Positions 1 to 64,000 of a DNA stretch of 64,000 bases are shown in pieces. The stretch is from positions 1-64,000 of the forward strand of contig NW_003118071.1 in the NCBI RefSeq assembly GCF_000003605.2, written 5' to 3'. The notes beneath the pieces are model-generated. The model had not been told where the DNA came from and did not search any database. It was given only the letters and a program-made list of their open reading frames with translations. This DNA is from Saccoglossus kowalevskii (taxonomy: Eukaryota; Hemichordata; Enteropneusta; Harrimaniidae). The number at the start of each line of letters is the position of its first letter. Within the stretch, counting starts at the first letter, position 1. A program made the translations under genes and the position numbers.

Positions 1-4
1 CGCC
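1..4 (-). tRNA. tRNA 5' fragment at window edge
   Basis: Only the first four bases of a copy (minus strand GGCG) are inside the window. Confidence 0.6.
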
Positions 5-264
5 CTGGTCCACGAACTTGACCTTATCGTTTCGAACTCTCGGTACACTGTATGGACATTATTACGATCCCATATTGAGTGTCATTAGTTTCATCGACAC
101 AGTGATATTCCAATTTCCAGGTAATTTTCATTTTTAAAATGATAGCATGTTCCGATTTACTTGCAAATCATGCACCAGCCTGAAGAGAATTTCCCAACCC
201 AGGACGAGTACAAATAATGTAATTATCAAACAAGGAATTGTTCGGTGAAGCACGTAAATAAAAA

Positions 265-320
265 AGGCACCACTGAGATTCGAACTAGACAGGCGCTTTA
301 ATCAACTAAGGCATGGCGCC
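265..320 (-). pseudogene. tRNA-Thr copy with 18-nt deletion, older junction
   Basis: Lacks the 3' half of the anticodon arm, the variable loop and the 5' T stem. The join keeps the CT shared by both breakpoints, so it looks ancestral to the commoner form. Confidence 0.85.
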
Positions 321-591
321 CTGGTCACGAACTTTGACCTATCGTTTCGACCTATCGGTACACTGTATGGACATTATTACGATCCATATTGAGTGTCATT
401 AGTTTCATCGACACAGTGATATTCCAATTTCCAGGTAATTTTCATTTTTAAAATGATAGAATGTTCCGATTTACTTGCAAATCATGCACCAGCCTGAAGA
501 GAATTCTCCAACCCTGGACGAGTACCAATCATGAGTGTCAATAATGTAATTATCAAACAAGGAATTGTTCGGTGAAGCACCTAAATAAAAA

Positions 592-665
592 AGGCACCAT
601 TGAAATTCGAACTCAGGATCTCCTGTTTACTTGACTGGCGCTTTAACCAACTAAGCCATGGCGCC
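592..665 (-). pseudogene. Decayed tRNA-Thr copy
   Basis: U33 is A, position 29 is a mismatch, and the T stem has G53-U61 and a broken 49-65 pair. Unlikely to work. Confidence 0.75.
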
Positions 666-936
666 CTGGTCTCGAACTTTCACCTTTCATTTCGACCTCT
701 CGGTACACTGTGTGGACATTATTACGATCAATATTAAGTGTCATAAGTTTCGACGACACAGTGATACTCAAATTTCCAGGTAATTTTTATTTTTATAATG
801 ATAGCATGTTCCGATTTACTTGCATATCATCCACCAGCCTGAGGAGAATTTCCTAACACTGGACGAGTACCAATCATGAGTGTCAATAATGTAATTATCA
901 AACAAGGAATTGTTCGGTGAAGCACCTAAATAAAAA

Positions 937-1010
937 AGGTACCACTGAGATTCGAACTCAGGATTTCCTGTTTACTAGACAGGCGCTTTAACCAACTAAG
1001 CCACGTGGCC
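937..1010 (-). pseudogene. Decayed tRNA-Thr copy, acceptor stem broken
   Basis: 5' strand is GGCCACG and 3' end GGUACC, leaving several acceptor mismatches; anticodon AGU is intact. Confidence 0.7.
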
Positions 1011-1266
1011 CTGGTCACGAATTTGGACCTTTCGTTTCTACCTCTCGGTACACTGTGTGGACATTATTACGATCCATATTAAGTGTCATACGTTTCATCG
1101 ATACAGCGATATTCAAATTTCCAGGTAATTTTTATTTTTATAATGATAGCATGTTCCGATTTACTTGCATATCATCCACCAGCCTGAAGAGAATTTCCCA
1201 ACCCTGGACGAGTACAAATATGTAAATTATCAAACAAGAATTGTTCGGTGAGCACCTAAATAAAAA

Positions 1267-1322
1267 AGGCACAACTGAGATTCGAACTAGACAGGCGCTT
1301 TAATCAACTAAGCCATGGCGCC
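1267..1322 (-). pseudogene. tRNA-Thr copy with 18-nt deletion, older junction
   Basis: Same clean CT join as 265-320, with one extra change near the 3' acceptor strand. Confidence 0.85.
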
Positions 1323-1592
1323 CTGGTCACGAACTTTGACCTTTCGTTTCGACCTCTCGGTACACTGTGTGGACATTATTACGATCCATAATAAGTGTCA
1401 TAAGTTTCATCGACACAGTGATATTTCAATTTCAAGCTATTTTTATTTTTAAAACGATAGCATGTTCCGATTTACTTGCATATCATCCACCAGCCTAAGG
1501 AGAATTTCCCAACACTGGACGACTACCAATCATGAGTGTCAATAATGTAATTATCAAACAAGGAATTGTTCGGTGAAGCACCTAAATAAAAT

Positions 1593-1666
1593 AGGCACCA
1601 CTGAGATTCGAACTCAGGATCTCATGTTTACTAGACAGGCGCTTTAACCAACTAAGACATGGCGCC
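1593..1666 (-). tRNA. tRNA-Thr(AGU) variant
   Basis: C28-U42 mismatch and G10 to U weaken the anticodon and D stems. Terminator is T-A-T4. Same variant at 17299. Confidence 0.65.
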
Positions 1667-1738
1667 CTGGTCACGAATTTTGACCTTTCGTTTCTACCTC
1701 TCGGTACACTGTGTGGATATTATTACGATCCATATTAA

Positions 1739-1760
1739 GTGTCATACGTTTCATCGACAC
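1739..1760. repeat. Small inverted repeat in the spacer (example)
   Basis: GTGTC and GACAC flank a 12-nt loop, and the arms recur in nearly every spacer about 100 bp from the tRNA 5' end. The loop varies while the arms rarely do. It may form a hairpin; no function is evident. Confidence 0.45.
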
Positions 1761-1919
1761 AGTGTTATTCCAATTTCCAGGTAATTTTTATTTTTATAAT
1801 GATAGCATGTTCCGATTTACTTGCATGTCATCCACCAGCCTGAAGAGAATTTCCCAACCCTGGACGAGTACAAATAATGTAATTATCCAACAAGGAATTG
1901 TTCGGTGAAGCACCTAAAT

Positions 1920-1926
1920 AAAAAAA
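1920..1926 (-). terminator. Pol III T run of copy 1926-1999 (example)
   Basis: Seven T on the minus strand directly after C72; the first doubles as U73. Most copies have six. Rarer forms are T-A-T5, T-A-T4, runs of four, and a T-A-T-A-T3 form with no run of four. Confidence 0.85.
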
Positions 1927-1936
1927 GGCACCACTG

Positions 1937-1947
1937 AGATTCGAACT
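1937..1947 (-). promoter_or_regulatory. B box of tRNA copy 1926-1999 (example)
   Basis: Minus strand reads AGTTCGAATCT. Compared with the usual GGTTCGANTCC, the outer G52-C62 pair is A52-U62, so pairing is kept but the box is off consensus. This is nearly array-wide. Confidence 0.8.
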
Positions 1948-1980
1948 CAGGATCTCCTGTTTACTAGACAGGCGCTTTAA

Positions 1981-1992
1981 CCAACTAAGCCA
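1981..1992 (-). promoter_or_regulatory. A box of tRNA copy 1926-1999 (example)
   Basis: Minus strand reads TGGCTTAGTTGG, matching the Pol III A-box consensus TRGYNNARNNGG. The same box is kept in most full-length copies; A14, G18, G19 and G10 variants are flagged in their own entries. Confidence 0.85.
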
Positions 1993-2257
1993 TGGCGCCC
2001 TGATCACGAATTTTGACCTTTCGTTTCTACCTCTCGGTACACTGTGTGGATATTATTACGATCCATATTAAGTGTCATACGTTTCATCGACACAGTGTTA
2101 TTCCAATTTCCAGGTAATTTTTATTTTTATAATGATAGCATGTTCCAATTTACTTGCATGTCATCCACCAGCCTGAAGAGAATTTCCCAACCCTGGACGA
2201 GTACAAATAATGTAATTATCCAACAAGGAATTGTTCGGTGAAGCACCTAAATTAAAA

Positions 2258-2331
2258 AGGCGCCACTGAGATTCGAACTCAGGATCTCCTGTTTACTAGA
2301 CAGGCGCTTTAACCAACTAAGCCATGGCGCC
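2258..2331 (-). tRNA. tRNA-Thr-AGT: tRNA-Thr(AGU), all Watson-Crick acceptor
   Basis: 3' strand is UGGCGCC, so all seven acceptor pairs are Watson-Crick, unlike most copies (4-69 G-U). T run is five. Confidence 0.9.
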
Positions 2332-2677
2332 CTGATCACGAATTTTGACCTTTTGTTTCGACCTCTCGGTGCACTGTATGGACATGATTACGATCCATAA
2401 TAAGTGTCATAAGTTTCATCGACACAGTGATATTTCAATTTCCAAGCTATTTTTATTTTTAAAATGATAGCATGTTCCGATTTACTTGCATATCATCCAC
2501 CAGCCTAAGGAGAATTTCCCAACCCTGGACGAGTACCAATCATGAGTGTCAATAATATAATTATCAAAAAAGGAATTGTTCGGTGAAGCACCTAAATAAA
2601 AATAGGCACCACTGAGAGTCGAACTCAGGATCTCCTGTTTATTAGACAGGCGCTTTAACCAACTAAGCCATGGCACC
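2332..2677. repeat. AAU unit duplicated at 57667-58012 (offset 55,335)
   Basis: Both units share a TATCAAAAAAGG change next to the AAU tRNA, linking the two ends of the window. A close relative lies at 16356-16701. Confidence 0.75.
2604..2677 (-). tRNA. Thr-type tRNA with Ile anticodon AAU
   Basis: G35 to A makes the loop CUAAUAA. Stems are sound, U36-A37-A38 is kept, T loop is UUCGACU, terminator T-A-T5. GGUGCC acceptor. Confidence 0.8.
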
Positions 2678-2948
2678 CTGGTCACGAACTTTGACCTTTC
2701 GTTTCTACCTCGCGGTACACTGTGTGGACATTATTACGATCCATATTAAGTGTCATACGGCTCATCGACACAGTGATATTCAAATTTCCAGGTAATTTTT
2801 ATTTTTATAATGATAGCATGTTCCGATTTACTTGCATATCATCCACCAGCCTGAGGAGAATTTTCTAACACTGGACGAGTACCAATGATGAGTGTCAATA
2901 ATGTAATTATCAAACAAGGAATTGTTCGGTGAAGCACCTAAATAAAAA

Positions 2949-3022
2949 AGGCACCACTGAGATTCGAACTCAGGATCTCCTGTTTACTAGACAGGCGCTT
3001 TAACCAACAAAGCCATGGCGCC
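2949..3022 (-). tRNA. tRNA-Thr(AGU), A14U
   Basis: A14 is U, which would break the U8-A14 tertiary pair and weakens the A box; otherwise sound, GGCGCC. Confidence 0.75.
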
Positions 3023-3293
3023 CTGGTCACATCCTTTGACCTTTCGTTTCGACCTCTCGGTGCACTGTATGGACATGATTACGATCCATAATAAGTGTCA
3101 TAAGTTTCATCGACACAGTGATATTTCAATTTCCAAGCTATTTTTATTTTTAAAATGATAGCATGTTCCGATTTACTTGCATATCATCCACCAGCCTGAG
3201 GAGAATTTCCCAACACTGGACGACTACCAATCATGATTGTCAATAATGTAATTATCAAACAAGGAATTGTTCGGTGAAGCACCTAAATAAAAA

Positions 3294-3367
3294 AGGCACC
3301 ACTGAGATTCGAACTCAGGATCTCCTGTTTACTAGACAGGCGCTTTAACCAACTAAGCCATGGCACC
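3294..3367 (-). tRNA. tRNA-Thr-AGT: tRNA-Thr(AGU)
   Basis: Sound copy with GGUGCC acceptor. Confidence 0.88.
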
Positions 3368-3638
3368 CTGATCACGAACTTTGACCTTTCGTTTCTAACT
3401 CTCGGTACACTGTGTGGACATTATTACGATGCATATTAAGTGTCATACGTTTCATCGACACAGAGATATTCAAATTTCCAGGTAATTTTTATTTTTATAA
3501 TGATAGCATGTTCCGATTTACTTGCATATCATCCACCAGCCTGAGGAGAATTTTCTGACACTGGACGAGCACCAATCATGAGTGTCAATAATGTAATTAT
3601 CAAACAAGGAATTGTTCGGTGAAGCACCTAAATAAAAA

Positions 3639-3712
3639 AGGCACCACTGAGATTCGAACTCAGGATCTCCTGTTTACTAGACAGGCGCTTTAACCAACTA
3701 AGCCATGGCACC
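3639..3712 (-). tRNA. tRNA-Thr-AGT: tRNA-Thr(AGU)
   Basis: Sound copy with GGUGCC acceptor. Confidence 0.88.
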
Positions 3713-3949
3713 CTGGTCACGAACTTTGATCTTTCGTTTCTAACTCTCGGTGCACTGTATGAACATGATTACGATCCATAATAAGTGTCATAAGTTTCAT
3801 CGACACAGTGATATTTCAATTTCCAAGCTATTTTTATTTTTAAAATGATAGCATGTTCCGATTTACTTGCATATCATCCACCAGCCTAAGGAGAATTTCC
3901 CAACCCCGGACGAGTACCAATCATGAGTGTCAATAATGTAATTATCAAA

Positions 3950-3967
3950 CAACTAAGCCATGGCGCC
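3950..3967 (-). pseudogene. 18-nt tRNA remnant
   Basis: A deletion between two CAA triplets removed the spacer end, the T run and tRNA positions from about 18 onward; only the first 18 nt remain. Confidence 0.75.
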
Positions 3968-4225
3968 CTGGTCACGAATTTTGACCTTTCGTTTCTACCT
4001 CTCGCTACACTCTGTGGATATTATTACGATCCATATTAAGTGTCATACGTTTCATCGACACAGTGATATTCCAATTTCCAGGTAATTTTTATTTTTATAA
4101 TGACAGCATGTTCCGATTTACTTGCATATCATTCACCAGCCTGAAGAGAATTTCCCAACCCAGGACGAGTACAAATAATGTAATTATCAAACAAGGAATT
4201 GTTCGGTGAAGCACCTAAATAAAAA

Positions 4226-4299
4226 AGGCACCACTGAGATTCGAACTCAGGATCTCCTGTTTACTAGACAGGCGCTTTAACCAACAAAGCCATGGCGCC
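4226..4299 (-). tRNA. tRNA-Thr(AGU), A14U
   Basis: As 2949-3022. Member of the remnant-then-A14U pair also seen at 9557/9833 and 48051/48327. Confidence 0.75.
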
Positions 4300-4570
4300 C
4301 TGGTCACATCCTTTGACCTTTCGTTTCGACCTCTCGGTGCACTGTATGGACATGATTACGATCCATAATAAGTGTCATAAGTTTCATCGACACAGTGATA
4401 TTTCAATTTCCAAGCTATTTTTATTTTTAAAATGATAGCATGTTCCGATTTACTTGCATATCATCCACCAGCCTGAGGAGAATTTCCCAACACTGGACGA
4501 CTACCAATCATGATTGTCAATAATGTAATTATCAAACAAGGAATTGTTCGGTGAAGCACCTAAATAAAAA

Positions 4571-4644
4571 AGGCACCACTGAGATTCAAACTCAGGATCT
4601 CCTGTTTACTAGACTGGCGCTTTTACCAACTAAGCCATGGCGCC
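4571..4644 (-). pseudogene. tRNA-Thr copy with C56U
   Basis: C56 to U breaks the G19-C56 pair and the B box core; position 29 is also mismatched. Confidence 0.75.
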
Positions 4645-4902
4645 CTGGTCACGAACTTTGCACTTTCGCTTCGAAATCTCGGTACACTGTATGGACATTA
4701 TTACGATCCATAATAAGTGTCATAAGTTTCATCGACACAGTGATATTTCAATTTCCAGGTTATTTTTATTTTTAAAATGATAGCATGTTCCGATTTACTT
4801 GCATATCATCCACCAGCCTAAAGAGAATTTCCCAACCCTGGACGAGTACAAATAATGTAATTATCAAACAAGGAATTGTTCGGTGAAGCACCTAAATAAA
4901 AA

Positions 4903-4976
4903 AGGCAACACTGAAATTCGAACTCAGGATCTCCTGTTTACTAGACAGGCGCTTTAACCAACTAACCCATGACGCC
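4903..4976 (-). pseudogene. Decayed tRNA-Thr copy, acceptor and D stem
   Basis: Acceptor strands GGCGUC and UGUUGCC mispair, C11 is G, and G53-U61 is a wobble. Confidence 0.7.
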
Positions 4977-5247
4977 CTGGTCACGAAATTTGACCTTTCG
5001 TTTCGACCTCTCGGTGAACTGTATGGACATGATTACGATCCATAATTAGTGTCATAAGTTTCATCGACACAGTGACATTTCAATTGCCAGGTTATTTTTA
5101 TTTTTAAAATGATATCATGTTCCGATTTACTTGCATATCATCCACCAGCCTAAAGAGAATTTCCCAACCCTGGACGAGTACCAATCATGAGTGTCAATAA
5201 TGTAATTATCAAACAAGGAATTGTTCGGTGAAGCACCTAAATAAAAA

Positions 5248-5321
5248 AGGCACCACTGAAATTCGAACTCAGGATCTCCTGTTTACTTGACTGGCGCTTT
5301 AACCAACTAAGCCATGGCGCC
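5248..5321 (-). pseudogene. tRNA-Thr copy with U33A
   Basis: Loop CAAGUAA lacks the invariant U33; position 29 mismatched and G53-U61. Same type at 592, 31067 and 53224. Confidence 0.75.
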
Positions 5322-5592
5322 CTGGTGTCGAACTTTGACCTTTCGTTTCGACCTCTCGGTACACTGTGTGGATATTATTACGATCAATATTAAGTGTCAT
5401 AAGTTTCGACGACACAGTGATACTCAAATTTCCAGGTAATTTTTATTTTTATAATGATAGCATGTTCCGATTTACTTGCATATCATCCACCAGCGTGAGG
5501 AGAATTTCCTAACACTGAACGAGTACCAATCATGAGTGTCAATAATGTAATTATCAAACAAGGAATTGTTCGGTGAAGCACCTAAATATAAA

Positions 5593-5666
5593 AGGCACCA
5601 CTGAGAGTCGAACTCAGGATCTCCTGTTTACTAGACAGGCGCTTTAACCAACTAAGCCATGGCGCC
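5593..5666 (-). tRNA. tRNA-Thr-AGT: tRNA-Thr(AGU)
   Basis: Sound, GGCGCC, T loop UUCGACU; T run is only four including U73, so termination may be weaker. Confidence 0.83.
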
Positions 5667-5937
5667 CTGGTCACGAACTTTGACCTATCGTTTCGACCAC
5701 TCGGTGCACTTTATGGACATGATTACGATCCATAATAAGTGTCATAAGTTTCATCGACACAGTGATATTTCAATTGCCAGGTTATTTTTATTTTTAAAAT
5801 GATAGCATGTTCCGATTTACTTGCATATCATCCCCCAGCCTAAAGAGAATTTCCCAACCCTGGACGAGTACCAATCATGAGTGTCAATAATGTAATTATC
5901 AAACAAAGATTTGTTCGGTGAAGTACCTAAATAAAAA

Positions 5938-6011
5938 AGGCACCACTGAGAGTCGAAATCAGGATCTCCTGTTTACAAGACAGGCGCTTTAACCAACTAA
6001 GCCATGGCGCC
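5938..6011 (-). tRNA. tRNA-Thr(UGU) variant
   Basis: A34 to U gives a different Thr anticodon that would read ACA/ACG. G53 is U, breaking the last T-stem pair. Confidence 0.7.
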
Positions 6012-6282
6012 CTGGTCACGAAATTTGACCTTTCGTTTCGACCTCTCGGTGCACTGTATGGACATGATTACGATCCATAATAAGTGTCATAAGTTTCATC
6101 GACACAGTGACATTTCAATTGCCAGGTTATTTTTATTTTTAAAATGATAGCATGTTCCGATTTACTTGCATATCATCCACCTGCCTAAAGTAAATTTCCC
6201 AACCCTGGACGAGTACCAATCATGAGTGTCAATAATGTAATTATCAAACAAGGAATTGTTCGGTGAAGCACCTAAATAAAAA

Positions 6283-6356
6283 AGGCACCACTGAGATTCA
6301 AACTCAGGATCTCCTGTTTACTAGACTGGCGCTTTTACCAACTAAGCCATGGCGCC
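6283..6356 (-). pseudogene. tRNA-Thr copy with C56U
   Basis: Same sequence as 4571-4644; duplicated 1,712 bp away. Confidence 0.75.
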
Positions 6357-6614
6357 CTGGTCACGAACTTTGCACTTTCGCTTCGAAATCTCGGTACACT
6401 GTATGGACATTATTACGATCCATAATAAGTGTCATAAGTTTCATCGACACAGTGATATTTCAATTTCCAGGTTATTTTTATTTTTAAAATGATAGCATGT
6501 TCCGATTTACTTGCATATCATCCACCAGCCTAAAGAGAATTTCCCAACCCTGGACGAGTACAAATAATGTAATTATCAAACAAGGAATTGTTCGGTGAAG
6601 CACCTAAATAAAAA

Positions 6615-6688
6615 AGGCAACACTGAAATTCGAACTCAGGATCTCCTGTTTACTAGACAGGCGCTTTAACCAACTAACCCATGACGCC
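6615..6688 (-). pseudogene. Decayed tRNA-Thr copy, acceptor and D stem
   Basis: Same as 4903-4976, again at a 1,712-bp offset. Confidence 0.7.
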
Positions 6689-6959
6689 CTGGTCACGAAA
6701 TTTGACCTTTCGTTTCGACCTCTCGGTACACTGTATGGACATTATTACGATCCATATTAAGTGTCATACGTTTCATCGACACAGAGATATTCAAATTTCC
6801 AGGTAATTTTTATTTTTATAATGATAGCATGTTCCGATTTACTTGCATATCATCCACCAGCCTGAGGAGAATTTTCTGACACTGGACGAGCACCAATCAT
6901 GAGTGTCAATAATGTAATTATCAAACAAGGAATTGTTCGGTGAAGCACCTAAATAAAAA

Positions 6960-7033
6960 AGGCACCACTGAGATTCGAACTCAGGATCTCCTGTTTACTA
7001 GACAGGCGCTTTAACCAACTAAGCCATGGCACC
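6960..7033 (-). tRNA. tRNA-Thr-AGT: tRNA-Thr(AGU)
   Basis: Sound, GGUGCC. Confidence 0.88.
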
Positions 7034-7292
7034 CTGGTCACGAACTTTGACCTTTCGTTTCTAACTCTCGGTGCACTGTATGAACATGATTACGATCCAT
7101 AATAAGTGTCATAAGTTTCATCGACACAGTGATATTTCAATTTCCAAGCTATTTTTATTTTTAAAATGATAGCATGTTCCGATTTACTTGCATATCATCC
7201 ACCAGCCTAAAGAGAATTTCCAAACCCTGGACGAGTACAAATAATGTAATTATCAAACAAAGAATTGTTCGGTGAAGCACCTAAATAAAAAT

Positions 7293-7366
7293 AGGCACCA
7301 CTGACAGTCGAACTCAGGATCTCCTGTTTACAAGACAGGCGCTTTAACCAACTAAGCCATGGCACC
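7293..7366 (-). tRNA. tRNA-Thr(UGU) variant
   Basis: Loop CUUGUAA; 53-61 is G-G. Terminator T-A-T5. GGUGCC. Confidence 0.7.
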
Positions 7367-7637
7367 CTGGTCACGAACTTTGACCTTTCGTTTCTAACTC
7401 TCGGTACACTGTGTGGACATTATTACGATCCATATTAAGTGTCATACGTTTCATCGACCCAGAGATATTCAAATTTCCAGGTAATTTTTATTTTTATAAT
7501 GATAGCATGTTCCGATTTACTTGCATATCATCCACCAGCCTGAGGAGAATTTTCTGACACTGGACGAGCACCAATCATGAGTGTCAATAATGTAATTATC
7601 AAACAAGGAATTGTTCGGTGAAGCACCTAAATAAAAA

Positions 7638-7711
7638 AGGCACCACTGAGATTCGAACTCAGGATCTCCTGTTTACTAGACAGGCGCTTTAACCAACTAA
7701 GCCATGGCACC
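7638..7711 (-). tRNA. tRNA-Thr-AGT: tRNA-Thr(AGU)
   Basis: Sound, GGUGCC. Confidence 0.88.
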
Positions 7712-7972
7712 CTGGTCACGAACTTTGACCTTTCGTTTCTAACTCTCGGTGCACTGTATGAACATGATTACGATCCATAATAAGTGTCATAAGTTTTCAT
7801 CGACACAGTGATATTTCAATTTCCAAGCTATTTTTTATTTTTAAAATGATAGCATGTTCCGATTTACTTGCATATCATCCACCAGCCTAAAGAGAATTTC
7901 CAAACCCTGGACGAGTACAAACAATGTAATTATCAAACAAAGAATTGTTCGGTGAAGCACCTAAATAAAAAT

Positions 7973-8046
7973 AGGCACCACTGACAGTCGAACTCAGGAT
8001 CTCCTGTTTACAAGACAGGCGCTTTAACCAACTAAGCCATGACGCC
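7973..8046 (-). tRNA. tRNA-Thr(UGU) variant
   Basis: As 7293-7366 but with GGCGUC acceptor strand, which mispairs at position 5. Confidence 0.65.
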
Positions 8047-8283
8047 CTGGTCACGAATTTTGACCTTTCGTTTCTACCTCTCGGTACACTGTGTGGACAT
8101 TATTACGATCCATATTAAGTGTCATACGTTTCATCGACACAGTGATATTTCAATTGCCAGGTTATTTTTATTTTTAAAATGATAGCATGTTTCGATTTAT
8201 TTGCATATCATCCACCAGCCTAAAGAGAATTTCCCAACCCTGGACGAGTACCAATCATGAGTGTCAATAATGTAATTATCAAA

Positions 8284-8301
8284 CAACTAAGCCATGGCGC
8301 C
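8284..8301 (-). pseudogene. 18-nt tRNA remnant
   Basis: Same CAA-CAA join as 3950-3967. Confidence 0.75.
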
Positions 8302-8572
8302 CTGGTCACGAATTTTGACCTTTCGTTTCTACCTCTCGGTACACTGTGTGGATATTATTACGATCCATATTAAGTGTCATACGTTTCATCGACACAGTGA
8401 TATTCCAATTTCCAGGTAATTTTTATTTTTATAATGATAGCATGTTCCGATTTACTTGCATATCATCCACCAGCCTAAGGAGAATTTCCCAACACTGGAC
8501 GACTACCAATCATGAGTGTCAATAATGTAATTATCAAACAAGGAATTGTTCGGTGAAGCGCCTAAATAAAAA

Positions 8573-8628
8573 ATTCACCACTGAGATTCGAAATAGACAG
8601 GCGCTTTAATCAACTAAGCCATGGCGCC
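8573..8628 (-). pseudogene. tRNA-Thr copy with 18-nt deletion
   Basis: 3' acceptor end is UGGUGAA, a subtype shared with 26390, 47068 and 52552. Confidence 0.85.
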
Positions 8629-8899
8629 TTGGTCACGAACTTTAACCTTTCGTTTCGACCTCTCGGTACACTGTGTGGACATTATTACGATCCATAATAA
8701 GTGTCATAAGTTTCATCGACACAGTGATATTTCAATTTCCAAGCTATTTTTATTTTTAAAATGATAGCATGTTCCGATTTACTTGCATATCATCCACCAG
8801 CCTAAGGAGAATTTCCCAACACTGGACGACTACCAATCATGAGTGTCAATAATGTAATTATCAAACAAGGAATTGTTCGGTGAAGCACCTAAATAAAAA

Positions 8900-8973
8900 A
8901 GGCACCACTGAGATTCGAACTCAGGATCTCCTGTTTACTAGACAGGCGCTTTAACCAACTAAGCCATGGCACC
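8900..8973 (-). tRNA. tRNA-Thr-AGT: tRNA-Thr(AGU)
   Basis: Sound, GGUGCC. Confidence 0.88.
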
Positions 8974-9244
8974 CTGGTCACGAACTTTGACCTTTCGTTT
9001 CTAACTCTCGGTACACTGTGTGGACATTATTACGATCCATATTAAGTGTCATACGTTTCATCGACACAGAGATATTCAAATTTCCAGGTAATTTTTATTT
9101 TTATAATGATAGCATGTTCCGATTTACTTGCATATCATCCACCAGCCTGAGGAGAATTTTCTGACACTGGACGAGCACCAATCATGAGTGTCAATAATGT
9201 AATTATCAAACAAGGAATTGTTCGGTGAAGCACCTAAATAAAAA

Positions 9245-9319
9245 AGGCACCACTGAGATATCGAACTCAGGATCTCCTGTTTACTAGACAGGCGCTTTAA
9301 CCAACTAAGCCATGGCACC
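9245..9319 (-). pseudogene. tRNA-Thr copy with T-loop insertion
   Basis: One extra base makes an eight-base T loop; the B box spacing is altered. Its partner at 47740 lacks the insertion. Confidence 0.75.
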
Positions 9320-9556
9320 CTGGTCACGAACTTTGACCTTTCGTTTCTAACTCTCGGTGCACTGTATGAACATGATTACGATCCATAATAAGTGTCATAA
9401 GTTTCATCGACACAGTGATATTTCAATTTCCAAGCTATTTTTATTTTTAAAATGATAGCATGTTCCGATTTACTTGCATATCATCCACCAGCCTAAGGAG
9501 AATTTCCCAACCCCGGACGAGTACCAATCATGAGTGTCAATAATGTAATTATCAAA

Positions 9557-50639: not shown

Positions 50640-50657
50640 CAACTAAGCCATGGCGCC
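50640..50657 (-). pseudogene. 18-nt tRNA remnant
   Basis: Partner of 32054. Confidence 0.75.
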
Positions 50658-54333: not shown

Positions 54334-54592
54334 CTAGTCACGAACTTTGACCTTTCGTTTCGACCTCTCAGTACACTGCATGAACATTATTACGATCCAT
54401 ATTAAGTGTCATAAATTTCATCGACACAGTGATATTTCAATTTCCAGGTTATTTTTATTTTTAAAATGATAGCATGTTCCGATTTACTTGCATATCATCC
54501 ACCAGCCTAAAGAGAATTTCCCAACCCTGGACGAGTACAAATAATGTAATTATCAAACAAGGAATTGTTCGGTGAAGCACCTAAATAAATAT

Positions 54593-54666
54593 AGGCACCA
54601 CTGAGAGTCGAACTCAGGATCTCCTGTTTACTAGACAGGCGCTTTAACCAACTAAGCCATGGCACC
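54593..54666 (-). tRNA. tRNA-Thr(AGU) without a T4 terminator
   Basis: As 27741-27814 at offset 26,852. Confidence 0.8.
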
Positions 54667-54937
54667 CTCGTCACGAACTTTGACCTTTCGTTTCGACCTC
54701 TCGGTGCACTGCATGGACATTATTACGATCCATAATAAGTGTCATAAGTTTCATCAACACAGTGATATTTCAATTTCCTGGCTATTTTTATTTTTAAAAT
54801 GATAGCATGTTCCGATTTACTTGCATATCATCTACCAGCCTAAGGAGAATTTCCCAACCCTGGGCGAGTATCAATCATGAGTGTAAATAATGTAATTATC
54901 AAACAAGGAATTGTTCGGTGAAGCACCTAAATAAAAA

Positions 54938-55011
54938 AGGCACCACTGAGATTCGAACTCAGGATCTCCTGTTTACTAGACAGGCGCTTTAACCAACTAA
55001 GCCATGGCACC
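54938..55011 (-). tRNA. tRNA-Thr-AGT: tRNA-Thr(AGU)
   Basis: Sound, GGUGCC; marks the return to a normal T6 run after the T-A-T block. Confidence 0.88.
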
Positions 55012-55269
55012 CTGGTCACGAACTTTGTCCTTTCGTTTCTAACTCTCGGTACACTGTGTGGACATTATTACGATCCATATTAAGTATCATACGTTTCATC
55101 GACACAGAGATATTCTAATTTCCAGGTAATTTTTATTTTTATAATGATAGCATGTTCCGATTTACTTGCATATCATCCACCAGTGTGAAGAGAATTTCCC
55201 AACCCTGGACGAGTACAAATAATGTAATTATCAAACAAGGAATTGTTCGATGAAGCACCTAAATAAAAA

Positions 55270-55343
55270 AGGCACCACTGAGATTCGAACTCAGGATCTC
55301 TTGTTTACTAGACAGGCGCTTTAACCAACTAAGCCATGGCACC
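55270..55343 (-). tRNA. tRNA-Thr(AGU), C28-A42 mismatch
   Basis: One anticodon-stem mismatch; GGUGCC. Confidence 0.73.
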
Positions 55344-55614
55344 CTGGCCACGAACTTTGACCTTTCGTTTCTAACTCTCGGTGCACTGTATGGACATGAT
55401 TACGATCCATAATAAGTGTCATAAGTTTCATCGACACAGTGATATTTCAATTTCCAAGCTATTTTTATTTTTAAAATGATAGCATTTTCAGATTTACTTG
55501 CATATCATCCACCAGCCTAAGGAGAATTTCCCAACCCTGGACGAGTACCAATCATGAGTGTCAATAATGTAATTATCAAACAAGGAATTGTTCGGTGAAG
55601 CACCTAAATAAAAA

Positions 55615-55688
55615 AGGCACCACTGAGATTCGAACTCAGGATCTCCTGTTTACTAGACAGGCGCTTTAACCAACTAAGCCATGGCACC
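55615..55688 (-). tRNA. tRNA-Thr-AGT: tRNA-Thr(AGU)
   Basis: Sound, GGUGCC. Confidence 0.88.
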
Positions 55689-55959
55689 CTGGTAACGAAA
55701 TTTGACCTTTCGTTTCTACCTCTCGGTACACTGTGTGGACATTATTACGATCCATATTAAGTGTCATATGTTTCATCGACACAGTGATATTTCAATTGCC
55801 AGGTTATTTTTATTTTTAAAATGATAGCATGTTCCGATTTATTTGCATATCATCCACCAGCCTAAAGAGAATTTCCCAACCCTGGACGGGTACCAATCAT
55901 GAGTGTCAATAATGTAATTATCAAACAAGGAATTGTTCGGTGAAGCACCTAAATAAAAA

Positions 55960-56015
55960 AGGCACCACTGAGATTCGAAATAGACAGGCGCTTTAATCAA
56001 CTAAGCCATGGCGCC
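55960..56015 (-). pseudogene. tRNA-Thr copy with 18-nt deletion
   Basis: Common form, in a fragment related to the 1,694-bp repeat. Confidence 0.85.
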
Positions 56016-56286
56016 CTGGTCACGAACTTTGACCTTTCGTTTCGACCTCTCGGAACACTGTATGGACATGATTACGATCCATAATAAGTGTCATAAGTTT
56101 CATCGACACAGTGATATTTCAATTTCCAAGCTATTTTTATTTTTAAAATGATAGCATGTTCTGATTTACTTGCATATCATCCACCAGCCTGAGGAGAATT
56201 TCCCAACACTGGACGACTACCAATCATGAGTGTCAATAATGTAATTATCAAACAAGGAATTGTTCGGTGAAGCACCTAAATAAAAA

Positions 56287-56360
56287 AGGCACCACTGAGT
56301 TTCGAACTCAGGATTTCCTGTTTACTAGACAGGCGCTTTAACCAACTAAGCCATGGCGCC
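56287..56360 (-). tRNA. tRNA-Thr(AGU), T loop UUCGAAA
   Basis: Same T-loop and variable-loop changes as 14933 but GGCGCC acceptor. Confidence 0.78.
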
Positions 56361-56631
56361 CTGGTAACGAATTTTGACCTTACGTTTCTACCTCTCGGTA
56401 CACTGTGTGGACATTATTACGATCCATATTAAGTGTCATACGTTTCATCGACACAGTGATATTTCAATTGCCAGGTTATTTTTATTTTTAAAATGATAGC
56501 ATGTTCCGATTTATTTGCATATCATCCACCAGCCTAAAGAGAATTTCCCAACCCTGGACGGGTACCAATCATGAGTGTCATTAATGTAATTATCAAACAA
56601 GGAATTGTTCGGTGAAGCACCTAAATAAAAA

Positions 56632-56687
56632 AGGCACCACTGAGATTCGAAATAGACAGGCGCTTTAATCAACTAAGCCATGGCGCC
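56632..56687 (-). pseudogene. tRNA-Thr copy with 18-nt deletion
   Basis: Shares the GTCATTAATG spacer mark with 15278. Confidence 0.85.
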
Positions 56688-56958
56688 CTGGTCACGAACT
56701 TTGACCTTTCGTTTCGACCTCTCGGTACACTGTGTGGACATTATTACGATCCATAATAAGTGTCATAAGTTTCATCGACACAGTGATATTTCAATTTCCA
56801 AGCTATTTTTATTTTTAAAACGATAGCATGTTCCGATTTACTTGCATATCATCCACCAGCCTGGGGAGAATTTTCTGACACTGGACGAGTACCAATCATG
56901 AGTGTCAATAATGTAATTATGAAACAAGGAATTGTTCGGTGAAGCACCTAAATAAAAA

Positions 56959-57014
56959 AGGCACCACTGAGATTCGAAATAGACAAGCGCTTTAATCAAC
57001 TCAGCCATGGCGCC
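56959..57014 (-). pseudogene. tRNA-Thr copy with 18-nt deletion
   Basis: Partner of 49349. Confidence 0.84.
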
Positions 57015-57260
57015 CTAGTCACGAACTTTGACCTTTCGTTTCGACCTCTCGGTACACTGTGTGGACATTATTACGATCCATAATAAGTGTCATAAGTTTC
57101 ATCGACACAGTGATATTTCAATTTCCAAGCTATTTTTATTTTTAAAATGATAGCATGTTCCGATTTACTTGCATATCAACCCTGGACGAGTACCAATCAT
57201 GAGTGTCAATAATATAATTATCAAACAAGGAATTGTTCGGTGAAGCACCTAAATAAAAAT

Positions 57261-57334
57261 AGGCACCACTGAGAGTCGAACTCAGGATCTCCTGTTTATT
57301 AGACAGGCGCTTTAACCAACTAAGCCATGGCGCC
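57261..57334 (-). tRNA. Thr-type tRNA with Ile anticodon AAU
   Basis: Partner of 49651; GGCGCC acceptor. Confidence 0.8.
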
Positions 57335-57592
57335 CTGGTCACGAATTTTAACCTTTCGTTTCTACCTCTCGGTACACTGTGTGGACATTATTACGATCCA
57401 TATTAAGTGTCATACGTTTCATCGACACAGTGATATTCCAATTTCCAGGTAATTTTTATTTTTATAATGATAGCATGTTCCGATTTACTTGCATGTCATC
57501 CACCAGCCTGAAGAGAATTTCCCAACCCTGGACGAGTACAAATAATGTAATTATCCAACAAGGAATTGTTCGGTGAAGCACCTAAATAAAAA

Positions 57593-57666
57593 AGGCACCA
57601 CTGAGATTCGAACTCAGGATATCCTGTTTACTAGACAGGCGCTTTAACCAACTAAGCCATGGCGCC
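57593..57666 (-). tRNA. tRNA-Thr-AGT: tRNA-Thr(AGU), variable-loop variant
   Basis: One variable-loop base differs; stems intact, GGCGCC. Confidence 0.83.
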
Positions 57667-57938
57667 CTGATCCCGAATTTTGACATTTCGTTTCGACCTC
57701 TCGGTGCACTGTATGGACATGATTACGATCCATAATAAGTGTCATAAGTTTCATCGACACAGTGATATTTCAATTTCCAAGCTATTTTTATTTTTAAAAT
57801 GATAGCATGTTCCGATTTACTTGCATATCATCCACCAGCCTAAGGAGAATTTCCCAACCCTGGACGAGTACCAATCATGAGTGTCAATAATATAATTATC
57901 AAAAAAGGAATTGTTCGGTGAAGCACCTAAATAAAAAT

Positions 57939-58012
57939 AGGCACCACTGAGAGTCGAACTCAGGATCTCCTGTTTATTAGACAGGCGCTTTAACCAACTA
58001 AGCCATGGCACC
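57939..58012 (-). tRNA. Thr-type tRNA with Ile anticodon AAU
   Basis: Partner of 2604, with the shared TATCAAAAAAGG mark nearby; GGUGCC. Confidence 0.8.
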
Positions 58013-58283
58013 CTGGTCACGAACTTTGACCTTTCGTTTCTACCTCGCGGTACACTGTGTGGACATTATTACGATCCATATTAAGTGTCATACGGCTCAT
58101 CGACACAGTGATATTCAAATTTCCAGGTAATTTTTATTTTTATAATGATAGCATGTTCCGATTTATTTGCATATCATCCACCAGCCTGAGGAGAATTTTC
58201 TAACACTGGACGAGTACCAATGATGTGTGTCAATAATGCAATTATCAAACAAGGAATTGTTCGGTGAAGCACCTAAATAAAAA

Positions 58284-58357
58284 AGGCACCACTGAGATTC
58301 GAACTCAGGATCTCCTGTTAACTAGACAGGCGCTTTAATCAACTAAGCCATGGCGCC
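58284..58357 (-). tRNA. tRNA-Thr(AGU), A37U and G19A
   Basis: Combines two changes otherwise found in separate copies; GGCGCC. Confidence 0.68.
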
Positions 58358-58615
58358 CTGGTCACGAACTTTGACCTTTCGTTTCGACCTCTCGGTACAC
58401 TGTATGGACATTATTACGATCCATAATAAGTGTCATAAGTTTCATCGACACAGTGATATTTCAATTTCCAGGTTATTTTTATTTTTAAAATGATAGCATG
58501 TTCCGATTTACTTGCATATCATCCACCAGCCTGAAGAGAATTTCCCAACCCAGGACGAGTACAAATAATGTAATTATCAAAGAAGGATTTGTTCGGTGAA
58601 GCACCTAAATAAAAA

Positions 58616-58689
58616 AGGCACCACTGAGATTCGAACTCAGGATCTCCTGTTTACTAGACAGGCGCTTTAACCAACTAAGCCATGGCGCC
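58616..58689 (-). tRNA. tRNA-Thr-AGT: tRNA-Thr(AGU)
   Basis: Sound, GGCGCC. Confidence 0.88.
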
Positions 58690-58947
58690 CTGGTCACGAA
58701 CTTTGCCCTTTCGTTTCGACCTCTCGGTACACTGTATGGACATTATTACGATCCATATTAAGTGTCATAAGTTTCATCGACACAGTGATGTTTCAATTTC
58801 CAGGTTATTTTTATTTTTAAAATGATAACATGTTCCGGTTTACTTGCATATCATCCTCCAGCCAAAAGAGACTTTCCCTACCCTGGACGAGTACAAATAA
58901 TGTAATTATCAAACAAGGAATTGTTCGGTGAAGCACCTAAATAAAAA

Positions 58948-59021
58948 AGGCACCACTGAGATTCAAACTCAGGATCTCCTGTTTACTAGACAGGCGCTTT
59001 AACCAACAAAGCCATGGCGCC
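58948..59021 (-). pseudogene. tRNA-Thr copy with C56U
   Basis: C56U together with A14U. Confidence 0.74.
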
Positions 59022-59292
59022 CTGGTCACGAACTTTGACCTTTCGTTTCGACCTCTCGGTGCACTGTATGGACATGATTACGATCCATAATAAGTGTCAT
59101 AAGTTTCATCGACACAGTGACATTTCAATTGCCAGGTTATTTTTATTTTTAAAATGATAGAATGTTCCGATTTACTTGTACATCATCCACCAGCCTAAAG
59201 AGAATTTCCCAACCCTGGAAGAATACCAATCATGAGTGTCAATAATGTAATTATCAAACAAGGATTTGTTCGGTGAAGCACCTAAATAAAAA

Positions 59293-59366
59293 AGGCACCA
59301 TTGAGAGTCGAACTCAGGATCTCTTGTTTACTAGACAGGCGCTTTAACCAACTAAGCCATGGCGCC
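59293..59366 (-). tRNA. tRNA-Thr(AGU), two stem mismatches
   Basis: C28-A42 and C49-A65 mismatches; UUCGACU loop. Identical neighbour follows. Confidence 0.68.
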
Positions 59367-59637
59367 CTGGTCACGAACTTTGACCTTTCGTTTCGACCTC
59401 TCGGTGCACTGTATGGACATGATTACGATCCATAATAAGTGTCATAAGTTTCATCGACACAGTGACATTTCAATTGCCAGGTTATTTTTATTTTTAAAAT
59501 GATAGAATGTTCCGATTTACTTGTATATCATCCACCAGCCTAAAGAGAATTTCCCAACCCTGGAAGAATACCAATCATGAGTGTCAATAATGTAATTATC
59601 AAACAAGGATTTGTTCGGTGAAGCACCTAAATAAAAA

Positions 59638-59711
59638 AGGCACCATTGAGAGTCGAACTCAGGATCTCTTGTTTACTAGACAGGCGCTTTAACCAACTAA
59701 GCCATGGCGCC
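59638..59711 (-). tRNA. tRNA-Thr(AGU), two stem mismatches
   Basis: Tandem twin of 59293-59366. Confidence 0.68.
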
Positions 59712-59969
59712 CTGGTCACGAACTTTGACCTTTCGTTTCGACCTCTCCGTACACTGTATGGACATTATTACGATCCATATTAAGTGTCATAAGTTTCATC
59801 GACACAGTGATATTCCAATTTCCAGGTAATGTTTATTTTTATAATGGTAGCATGTTCCGATTTACTTGCATATCATCCACCAGCCTGAAGAGAATTTCCC
59901 AACCCTGGACGAGTACAAATAATGTAATTATCAAACAAGGAATTGTTCGGTGAAGCACCTAAATAAAAA

Positions 59970-60043
59970 AGGCACCACTGAGAGTCGAACTCAGGATCTC
60001 CTGTTTACTAGACAGGCGCTTTAACTAACAAAGCCATGGCGCC
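59970..60043 (-). tRNA. tRNA-Thr(AGU), G18A and A14U
   Basis: G18-U55 and U8-A14 tertiary pairs both lost; UUCGACU; same at 63679. Confidence 0.7.
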
Positions 60044-60301
60044 CTGGTCACGAACTTTGACCTTTCGTTTCGACCTCTCGGTGCACTGTATGGACATGAT
60101 TACGATCCATAATAAGTGTCATAAGTTTCATCGACACAGTGACATTTCAATTGCCAGGTTATTTTTATTTTTAAAATGATAGCATGTTCCGATTTACTTG
60201 CATATCATCCACCAGCCTAAAGAGAATTTCCCAACCCTGGACGAGTACAAATAATGTAATTATCAAACAAGGAATTGTTCGGTGAAGCATCTAAATAAAA
60301 A

Positions 60302-60375
60302 AGGCACCACTGAAATTCAAACTCAGGATCTCCTGTTTACTAGACAGGCGCTTTAACCAACTAAGCCATGGCGCC
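60302..60375 (-). pseudogene. tRNA-Thr copy with C56U
   Basis: Partner of 40447. Confidence 0.73.
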
Positions 60376-60633
60376 CTGGTCACGAATTTCGACCTTTCGT
60401 TTCTACCTCTCGGTACAATGTGTGGACATTATTACGATCCATATTAAGTGTCATACGTTTCATCGACACAGTGATATTCAAATTTCCAGGTAATTTTTAT
60501 TTTTATAATGATAGCATGTTCCGATTTACTTGCATATCATCCACCAGCCTGAAGAGAATTTCCCTACCCTGGACGAGTACAAATAATGTAATTATCTGAC
60601 AAGGAATTGTTCGGTGAAGCACCTAAATAAAAA

Positions 60634-60703
60634 AGGCACCACTGAGATTCGAACTCAGGATCTCCTATTTACTAGACAGGCGCTTTAACGAACTAAGGCA
60701 TGG
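60634..60703 (-). pseudogene. tRNA-Thr copy lacking its first four bases
   Basis: Partner of 40779, with the same 8-bp deletion across the 5' end. Confidence 0.78.
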
Positions 60704-60970
60704 TCACGAATTTTGACCTTTCGTTTCTACCTCTCGGTACACTCTGTGGACATTATTATGATCCATATTAAGTGTCATACGTTTCATCGACACAGTGATA
60801 TTCCAATTTCCAGGTAATTTTCATTTTTAAAATGATAGCATGTTCCGATTTACTTGCATATCATCCACCAGCCTAAAGTAAATTTCCCAACCCTGGACGA
60901 GTACCAATCATGAGTGTCAATAATGTAATTATCAAACAAGGATTTGTTCGGTGAAGCATCTAAATAAAAA

Positions 60971-61044
60971 AGGCACCACTGAGATTCAAACTCAGAATAT
61001 CCTGTTTACTAGACAGGCGCTTTAACCAACTAAGCCATGGCGCC
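60971..61044 (-). pseudogene. Chimeric tRNA-Thr copy with C56U
   Basis: 3' part matches the 41116 copy (C56U) and the rest matches the 41735 copy, so an exchange point lies inside this gene near 60985-60997. Confidence 0.78.
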
Positions 61045-61302
61045 CACGTCGCGAACTTTGCCCTTTCGTTTCGACCTCTCCGTACACTGTATGGACATTA
61101 TTACGATCCATATTAAGTGTCATGAGTTTCATCGACACAGTGATGTTTCAATTTCCAGGTTATTTTTATTTTTAAAATGATAACATGTTCCGGTTTACTT
61201 GCATATCATCCTCCAGCCAAAAGAGACTTTCCCAACCCTGGACGAGTACAAATAATGTAATTATCAAACAAGGAATTGTTCGGTGAAGCACCTAAATAAA
61301 AA

Positions 61303-61376
61303 AGGCACCACTGAGAGTCGAACTCAGGATCTCCTGTTTACTAGACAGGCGCTTTAACCAACTAAGCCATGGCGCC
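61303..61376 (-). tRNA. tRNA-Thr-AGT: tRNA-Thr(AGU)
   Basis: Sound, GGCGCC, UUCGACU; partner of 42067. Confidence 0.87.
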
Positions 61377-61648
61377 CTGGTCACGAACTTTGACCTTTCG
61401 TTTCGACCTCTCGGTGCACTGTATGGACATGATTACGATCCATAATAAGTGTCATAAGTTTCATCGACACAGTGACATTTCAATTGCCAGGTTATTTTTA
61501 TTTTTAAAATGATAGCATGTTCCGATTTACTTGCATATCATCCACCAGTCTAAAGTAAATTTATCAACCCTGGACGAGTACCATATCATGAGTGTCAATA
61601 ATGTAATTATCAAACAAGGAATTGTTCGGTGAAGCATCTAAATAAAAA

Positions 61649-61722
61649 AGGCACCACTGAGATTCAAACTCAGGATCTCCTGTTTACTAGACAGGCGCTT
61701 TTACCAACTAAGCCATGGCGCC
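61649..61722 (-). pseudogene. tRNA-Thr copy with C56U
   Basis: Partner of 42412. Confidence 0.73.
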
Positions 61723-61993
61723 CTGGTCACGAACTTTGACCTTTCGTTTCGACCTCTCGGTACACTGTATGGACATTATTACGATCCATAATAAGTGTCA
61801 TAAGTTTCATCGACACAGTGATATTTCAATTTCCAGGTAATTTTTATTTTTAAAATGATAGCATGTGCCGATTTACTTGCATATCATCCACCAGCATCAA
61901 GAGAATTTCCCAACCCTGGACGAATACCAATCATGAGTGTCAATAATGTAATTATCAAACAAGGATTTGTTCAGCGAAGCACCTAAATAAAAA

Positions 61994-62067
61994 TGGCACC
62001 ACTGAGATTCGAACTCAGGATCTCCTGTTTACTAGACAGTCACTTTTACCAACTAAGCCATGGCGCC
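61994..62067 (-). tRNA. tRNA-Thr(AGU) with A73, stem changes
   Basis: Discriminator is A instead of U, then T5. The 27-43 pair is broken (ACUGU strand). Partner of 42757, whose acceptor differs. Confidence 0.68.
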
Positions 62068-62325
62068 CTGGTCACGAGCTTTTACCTTTCGTTTCGACCT
62101 CTCGATACACTGTATGGATATTATTACGATCCATAATAAGTGTCACAAGTTTCATCGACACAGTGATATTTCAATTGCCAGGTTATTTTTATTTTTAAAA
62201 TGATAGCATGTTCCGATTTACTTGCATATCATCCACCAGCCTAAAGAGAATTTCCCAACCCTGGACGAGTACAAATAATGTAATTATCAAACAAGGAATT
62301 GTTCGGTGAAGCACCTAAATAAAAA

Positions 62326-62399
62326 AGGCACCACTGAGAGTCGAACTCAGGATCTCCTGTTTACTAGACAGGCGCTTTAACCAACAAAGCCATGGCGCC
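62326..62399 (-). tRNA. tRNA-Thr(AGU), A14U
   Basis: A14U, UUCGACU; partner of 38085 without its D-stem damage. Confidence 0.75.
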
Positions 62400-62669
62400 C
62401 TGGTCACGAACTTTGACCTTTCGTTTCGACTTCTCGAAACATGTATGGACATGATTACGATCCATAATAAGTGTCATAAGTTTCATCGACACAGTGACAT
62501 TTCAATTGCCAGGTTATTTTTATTTTTAAAATGATAGCATGTTCCGATTTACTTGCATATCATCCACCAGCCTAAAGAGAATTTCCCAACCCTGGACGAG
62601 TACTAATCATGAGTGTCAATAATGTAATTATCAAAGAAGGATTTGTTCGGTGAAGCACCTAAATAAAAA

Positions 62670-62743
62670 AGGCACCACTGAGAGTCGAACTCAGGATCTC
62701 CTGTTTACTAGACAGGCGCTTTAATCAACTAAGCCATGGCGCC
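62670..62743 (-). tRNA. tRNA-Thr(AGU), G19A
   Basis: Partner of 38429 and 39106. Confidence 0.73.
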
Positions 62744-63001
62744 CTGGTCACGAACTTTGACTTTTCGTTTCGACCTCTCGGTGCACTGTATGGACATGAT
62801 TACGATCCATAATAAGTGTCATAAGTTTCATCGACACAGTGACATTTCAATTGCCAGGTTATTTTTATTTTTAAAATGATAGCATGTTCCGATTTACTTG
62901 CATATCATCCACCAGCCTAAAGTAAATTTCCCAACCCTGGACGAGTACAAATAATGTAATTATCAAACAAGGAATTGTTCGGTGAAGCACCTAAATAAAA
63001 A

Positions 63002-63075
63002 AGGCACCACTGAGATTCAAACTCAGGATCTCCTGTTTACTAGACAGGTGCTTTTACCAACTAAGCCATGGCGCC
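63002..63075 (-). pseudogene. tRNA-Thr copy with C56U
   Basis: Partner of 39438, with G26A. Confidence 0.73.
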
Positions 63076-63346
63076 CTGGTCATGAACTTTCACCTTTCGT
63101 TTCGAAATCTCGGTACACTGTATGGACATTATTACGATCCATAATAAGTGTCATAAGTTTCATCGACACAGTGATATTTCAATTTCCAGGTTATTTTTAT
63201 TTTTAAAATGATAGCATGTACGGATTTACTTGCATATCATCCACCAGCCTGAGGAGAATTTCCTAACACTGAACGAGTACCAATCATGAGTGTCAATAAT
63301 GTAATTATCAAACAAGGAATTGTTCGGTGAAGCACCTAAATAAAAA

Positions 63347-63420
63347 AGGCACCACTGAGATTCGAACTCAGGATCTCCTGTTCACTAGACAGGCGCTTTA
63401 ACCATCTAAGCCATGGCGCC
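63347..63420 (-). tRNA. tRNA-Thr(AGU), A37G
   Basis: Partner of 39783. Confidence 0.72.
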
Positions 63421-63678
63421 CTGGTCACTAATATTGACCTTTCGTTTCTACCTCTCGGTACACTGTGTGGACATTATTACGATCCATATTAAGTGTCATA
63501 CGTTTCATCGACACAGTGATATTCAAATTTCCAGGTAATTTTTGTTTTTATAATGGTAGCATGTTCCGATTTACTTGCATATCATCCACCAGCCTGAAGA
63601 GAATTTCCCAACCCTGGACGAGTACAAATAATGTAATTATCAAACAAGGAATTGTTCGGTGAAGCACCTAAATAAAAA

Positions 63679-63752
63679 AGGCACCACTGAGAGTCGAACT
63701 CAGGATCTCCTGTTTACTAGACAGGCGCTTTAACTAACAAAGCCATGGCGCC
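63679..63752 (-). tRNA. tRNA-Thr(AGU), G18A and A14U
   Basis: Last tRNA in the window; same changes as 59970. Its spacer continues to the window end without reaching another tRNA. Confidence 0.7.
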
Positions 63753-64000
63753 CTGGTCACGAACTTTGACCTTTCGTTTCGACCTCTCGGTGCACTGTAT
63801 GGACATGATTACGATCCATAATAAGTGTCATAAGTTTCATCGACACAGTGACATTTCAATTGCCAGGTTATTTTTATTTTTAAAATGATAGCATGTTCCG
63901 ATTTACTTGCATATCATCCACCAGCCTAAAGAGAATTTCCCAACCCTGGACGAGTACAAATAATGTAATTATCAAACAAGGAATTGTTCGGTGAAGCATC

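Follow-up and report, generated by a model that had tools for sequence, protein, structure and literature searches.

A tandem tRNA-Thr(AGU) array in the hemichordate Saccoglossus kowalevskii, one of a set of isotype-specific arrays and most likely a redundant gene reservoir

The DNA analyzed here (the window, 64,000 bases) comprises bases 1-64000 of contig C1130 (NW_003118071.1, 72,304 bases) from the 572 Mb genome of Saccoglossus kowalevskii, and it is occupied by one tandem array of tRNA-Thr(AGU) genes and their remnants. Across the window, 191 units, mostly 345 or 332 bp long, lie head to tail, each with a tRNA-Thr(AGU) or a remnant of it on the minus strand, a count that agrees with the roughly 191 tRNA positions reported by an earlier reading of the letters alone (the sequence-only reading). 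Tandem Repeats Finder rows give a period of 345 from 284 to 63,965, with 255-bp units interspersed. The consensus unit of 345 bp consists of a 73-base tRNA-Thr(AGU), a T run directly after it and then spacer, and the 345-bp units have a GC content of 39%. Unit ends were set by cutting at a spacer anchor, which gave 210 on C1130 and 28 on C402, a second contig of the array; 235 units were aligned (208 from C1130 and 27 from C402), one 549-bp C1130 unit having been dropped before counting. In 79 of these 235 units, 13 bp are missing at unit positions 126-138, and 73 of the 79 have no other gap of at least 4. The array and its representative copies are located as follows.

1..64000, minus strand (the tRNA sense strand): tandem array of 191 aligned units, continuing to about 70,200 of C1130 (72,304 bp)
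265..320, minus strand: dead copy with an 18-nt deletion that starts in the anticodon loop and ends in the T stem, a deletion carried by 23 of 235 aligned units
1926..1999, minus strand: copy among those with the second-best score (Rfam, 69.7 bits)
2258..2331, minus strand: top-scoring tRNA copy of the window (Rfam, 72 bits)
3023..3367, minus strand: complete 345-bp unit with tRNA, T run and about 265 bp of spacer
3289..3294, minus strand: six-T run at the tRNA end, resembling an RNA polymerase III (Pol III) terminator
3294..3367, minus strand: tRNA-Thr(AGU), T3 variant (T3 opposite G71), more frequent in the window than any other variant (24 copies; Rfam, 66.6 bits)
3953..3967, minus strand: 15-base tRNA remnant in a 255-bp unit after a 90-bp loss, as in 10 of 235 aligned units

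ARAGORN called 160 tRNAs in the window, all on the minus strand; as counted by hand, 143 of their anticodons read AGT and 17 are one-base variants (9 AAT, 6 TGT, 1 AGC and 1 AGA), which bears out the earlier claim that all copies derive from tRNA-Thr(AGU) on that strand. Nor do nearly all copies score as pseudogenes, an outcome that the sequence-only reading had named as fatal to its view: the Rfam tRNA model (RF00005) gave 154 matches above the gathering score, ranging from 49.5 to 72 bits among the 150 matches listed. The tRNA is gap-free in 157 of the 191 units and gapped in 34. No stem pair is broken in 115 of the 157 gap-free tRNAs; sound stems together with AGT are found in 103 units, and in 73 when both promoter boxes, defined by consensus sequences, are included. 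Fully sound copies (stems, AGU, both boxes and at least four consecutive T) number 70 of 191; the earlier figure of about 58 thus had the right order of magnitude, not the exact count. The longest T run is six in 165 of the 191 units. Internal promoters and T runs make sound tRNA copies competent for Pol III. The tRNA equals the consensus in 22 window copies, and the commonest variant (24 copies) differs from it only by a C-to-T change at position 3, which places T opposite G71. Units with G19A are mostly gapped at tRNA positions 35-53 (23 of 29), and the dead version with the 18-nt deletion has therefore spread as one lineage. Compensation between positions 19 and 57 was considered and rejected, with only position 19 changed in 28 units, only position 57 in 17, and both in a single unit.

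The array ends near base 70,200 of C1130, with other sequence beyond, and near base 9,495 of C402, where an open frame adjoins. By eye, this frame resembles a non-long-terminal-repeat retrotransposon; a 51-aa piece of it had no Pfam match. The spacer is present on six contigs besides C1130. One spacer 34-mer had 36 exact matches in a genome search, all on C402, C756, C1035, C1130, C1280, C1680 and C4544, and a second spacer pattern had 302 matches, with all of those listed (about 100) on the same seven contigs; a core tRNA 42-mer, allowing up to 2 mismatches, had 373 genome matches. In about 1.5 kb searched for a second known RNA in the spacer, only the tRNA scored above the gathering threshold, and no similar DNA was found in a plasmid collection, the only such collection searched. 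The array contigs are short where seen (72 kb for C1130, 35.5 kb for C1035, 11 kb for C402 and 61 kb for C341, which holds an initiator Met array), and the arrays are therefore probably incompletely assembled. Although this gives some purchase to the idea that the assembler multiplied a few units, we consider such an artefact very improbable: the 191 units hold 87 distinct tRNA sequences, and unit mixtures differ among contigs; for one spacer variant, C756 alone holds 21 of the 36 exact matches. Nor does duplication of a single unit during assembly account for the array, since exact repeats on the contig are no longer than 1091 bp and the contig runs on past the array into different sequence.

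Beyond the array contigs, a 58-base Thr pattern, allowing up to 2 mismatches, had three of its 96 genome matches.

C1739:264658: dispersed Thr-AGU gene on a 289-kb contig
C2918:652023 and 664536: two dispersed Thr-AGU genes on a 793-kb contig

The two genes on C2918 match the array consensus over all 73 bases, each is followed by a T run, and their flanks had no significant similarity to the array spacer. The consensus of the array is thus also kept elsewhere, and the array is not its sole source. The C1739 gene differs from the consensus at positions 6, 26, 53 and 63, of which 53 and 63 are partners; their pair is A-U in the array consensus and G-C in the C1739 gene. One dispersed Arg-UCG gene and two dispersed initiator Met (iMet) genes were also seen; of the latter, the one on C285 departs from the array type, and the one on C3574, as judged by eye, matches it. 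Given the dispersed Thr-AGU genes, the earlier remark that the array has far more copies than translation should require is reasonable as regards ordinary cells. The same genes bear on whether the unit is a tRNA-derived retroposon turned tandem, that is, a satellite derived from a short interspersed nuclear element (SINE), as reported in reptiles (PMC10702118). A tRNA head joined to an unrelated body is indeed SINE-like, but in the array tRNA the acceptor stem is still sound and the T run present, none of the three dispersed Thr copies comes with the spacer, and all 36 exact matches of the 34-mer, like the listed matches of the second pattern, fall on the seven array contigs. We found no interspersed copies with the spacer body among these matches and rejected a SINE origin, which we regard as extremely improbable.

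A family search of the genome with the tRNA model, in which the best 63 candidates were scored, placed most of them in other arrays. Applied to these loci, ARAGORN revealed a Thr-UGU array with a tRNA every 570-680 bp, an Arg-UCG array with a spacing of about 565 bp and a Cys-GCA array with a spacing of about 237 bp. Patterns for iMet, Pro and Gly were picked beforehand, without sight of the genome, and matched with up to 3 mismatches, a search that may miss dispersed members. All three were arrayed, and nearly all of the matches listed (at most about 100 per pattern) lie in arrays. The iMet pattern had 234 matches (the array unit being about 603 bp), with 55 listed matches across about 98 unit positions on C341; the Pro pattern had 569 (UGG-like and AGG-like by eye) and the Gly-GCC pattern 150, the Pro and Gly copies being seen over the pattern bases alone (35 or 38). 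The isotypes seen arrayed are Thr, Arg, Cys, Met, Pro and Gly; Leu was seen once, in one iMet array unit. In that unit, the one complete iMet unit read (L076, C341:1050-1760), a Leu-CAA-like gene with an apparent intron lies on the same strand, although ARAGORN called Met alone. The Cys-GCA arrays (L067, L070 and L071, on C926 and C682) display a higher-order pattern of about three units, or 713 bp. At L042 (C4103), the Thr-UGU units each contain a single sound tRNA, usually accompanied by two truncated relics that match its beginning and end.

In the Arg-UCG array, the variant test drew on 46 units of less than 700 bp from 30.5 kb of C237 (36.6 kb spanned), and the tRNA carries 27 variants against 26.4 expected across these units. 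The 565-bp Arg unit goes back to an old dimer, with an identity of about 62-64% between its aligned halves (C237; L043-L045, L047-L066 and L068). In one half the tRNA has decayed to a relic that resembles the dispersed Arg gene at about 81% over 63 bases, whereas the other holds a sound tRNA that is 2 of 73 bases off the dispersed gene, at the partner positions 5 and 68, with pairing kept. This provides moderate evidence that an intact tRNA is kept at the level of the array; alternatively, the sound half could have been repaired by conversion from a dispersed gene.

Within the Thr array, unit turnover is by exchange, in satellite fashion. The nearest units are a median of 2 alignment columns apart, neighbouring units are no closer than other pairs (mean 40.2 versus 38.5 columns), and exact repeats join distant units, the longest on the contig being the 1091-bp repeat. 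The tRNA is less variable than the spacer, with a diversity of 0.048 versus 0.067 and a mean divergence from the consensus of 0.027 versus 0.044. Among the consensus sequences of four live spacer lineages, the tRNA varies at 0 of 73 columns versus 26 of 272 elsewhere, and no other 73-column window in this comparison is as low in variation; with finer clustering of the lineages, 3 and 7 tRNA columns vary.

Taken at the level of the genome, the system looks like a gene reservoir, since at least seven tRNA kinds have arrays and many copies look intact, and we slightly favour the view that this tandem tRNA-Thr(AGU) array, one of a set of isotype-specific arrays, is a redundant reservoir of Pol III genes. 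Several results weigh against it. The array carries 84 distinct tRNA variants, where the base-specific rates of the spacer predict 90.7 (P 0.26), in a test with a power of 0.92 for a 30% reduction under the assumption of independent variants, which is only roughly true given their shared ancestry; pairing survives in 14 of 51 stem variants versus 12.2 expected (P 0.33). Once sites with common variants are left out, tRNA and spacer carry equal loads (0.0160 versus 0.0170 per site), so the difference between them lies in a few common variants. The consensus sequences of the live lineages are equally invariant over about 60 bases after the tRNA (unit positions 74-135), and because the invariant block runs past the tRNA, the lineage comparison is not specific for it and was downgraded from the support that it initially seemed to give. 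Dead versions were amplified too (the 18-nt deletion in 23 of 235 units, the 90-bp deletion in 10 of 235), 8 of the 12 Cys copies at L067 have, by eye, a 2-base loss, a changed D or T loop or a damaged anticodon arm, and, with dispersed Thr-AGU genes present, the array need not be essential.

The main rival is an inert satellite, in which a tRNA gene would have been caught in an amplification and would now be a silent repeat with no role in translation, the tRNA being supplied by dispersed genes. Two marks of satellite DNA are present, head-to-tail repeats kept alike by exchange and single copies with no detectable selection, so the array evolves like a satellite. Single copies without detectable constraint, the co-amplification of dead units and the sound-looking dispersed Thr, Arg and iMet genes all fit a silent repeat; at least seven arrayed tRNA kinds with many intact-looking copies, and an old Arg dimer with a sound tRNA in one half and a decayed one in the other, fit it poorly. 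We therefore hold the inert satellite to be a serious possibility, albeit one that is probably wrong. The sequence-only reading had left four options side by side (a functional gene reservoir, a satellite that happens to carry a tRNA, a chromatin boundary or heterochromatin block, and a source of tRNA fragments); two of them find support together, the satellite at the level of single copies and the gene reservoir at the level of the genome, where at least seven kinds are arrayed.

The third of those options, in which bound TFIIIC or the clustered tRNA genes would form a boundary or a block of heterochromatin, with tRNA output as a by-product, appears quite improbable. Many copies have both promoter boxes intact, and the human tRNA repeat at 1q23.3 is described as binding CTCF and bearing euchromatin and heterochromatin marks (PMC4041453), yet the only unusually invariant part besides the tRNA is the block of about 60 bases after it. 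When nine loci (eight from arrays and the one with the dispersed Arg gene) were compared with the Thr unit, a weak test, only the Thr-UGU tRNA and a weak 21-base match in the Cys locus L070 were found. The Thr-UGU, Arg and Cys array loci thus have no clear spacer element in common with the Thr-AGU array.

Under the favoured reading of the array as a gene reservoir, a functional tRNA gene, together with some 270 bp of adjoining DNA, would have been amplified head to tail, and unequal exchange and conversion would keep the units turning over, so that single copies would be free to decay while enough of them remain intact. To judge from their boxes and T runs, the intact copies would be transcribed by Pol III from the internal A and B boxes, ending at the T run. 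More tentatively, and by analogy with zebrafish, the reservoir might meet peaks of demand, for instance in the oocyte and early embryo, with the dispersed genes serving other cells. An invertebrate oocyte-type system spanning many isotypes, in which array isodecoders would load the egg and dispersed ones would take over later, is a further extension of the analogy that we consider rather unlikely.

Arrays of this kind are already known, and the present case contributes its genome and the measured ageing of the copies; literature searches made without a species name brought up no report that could be tied to this genome. In the cnidarian Hydractinia, tRNA arrays are described for all twenty amino acids (PMC11067881), and the likeness extends to evenly spaced arrays with tens to hundreds of similar tRNA copies and spacers, to several isotypes being arrayed and to a comparable assembly size (406 and 565 Mb in Hydractinia; PMC11067881). 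Single-copy drift was measured in the present array. In Entamoeba histolytica, nearly all tRNA genes are reported to be arrayed, unlike here, where dispersed genes are present (PMC2652664). Entamoeba shares tandem arrays of distinct units, some with several tRNAs, as in the iMet unit with its Leu-CAA-like gene; it differs as a protist and in the short tandem repeats described between genes in two species (PMC2652664). Even head-to-tail spacing and tens to hundreds of copies, many of them sound, are the marks of the Hydractinia and Entamoeba type, and both are found in the Thr array. The closest tested parallel is zebrafish, where egg and early-embryo isodecoders are reported to lie in repetitive regions and later-rising ones to be scattered, with Thr-AGT, TGT and CGT among the switching sets (PMC11417395). 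Repetitive and scattered genes for one anticodon occur here as in zebrafish, with one of the three dispersed Thr genes here differing from the array consensus; isodecoder expression was measured in zebrafish (PMC11417395). Zebrafish clusters are described as mostly heterogeneous pairs, as opposed to the single-tRNA array here, in a survey in which tRNA gene clustering varies widely among eukaryotes (PMC2888827). The human variable-number tandem repeat at 1q23.3 is likewise a tandem repeat with tRNA genes, but its 7.3-kb units hold several tRNA genes each, number 9-43, are 98% identical and are GC-rich, compared with 345 bp and 39% GC here (PMC4041453). The Arabidopsis SYY cluster shares tandemly repeated tRNA genes within a redundant set; it is reported to be silent across most tissues and to be switched back on in root tips (PMC12308677).

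Among the loci, L072 and L074 lie on a mitochondrial contig, C4830, of 17,037 bases, with gene names read from translations. On this contig, cox1 and nad6 are opposite in strand to nad1, cob and cox2. TGA reads as Trp, AAA as Lys (at conserved Lys) and AGA probably as Ser (at conserved Ser), while ATA occurs mostly at sites that we take to be conserved Ile. The gene order may point to a deuterostome, perhaps a hemichordate. Mitochondrial tRNAs described for cnidarians are those for Met and Trp (PMC11067881); this contig also carries tRNAs for Leu, Gln, Ala, Phe and Pro.

The Saccoglossus arrays lengthen the short list of animal genomes reported to hold tRNA genes in long isotype-specific tandem arrays. 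They also reveal how such arrays age, with single copies drifting freely, dead versions spreading and many intact ones persisting. A few bases set the array apart from some of the dispersed genes, which makes the question of egg supply testable by sequencing: the 53:63 pair of tRNA-Thr and the acceptor and T stems of iMet could separate the two pools in reads, although some dispersed genes share the array type.

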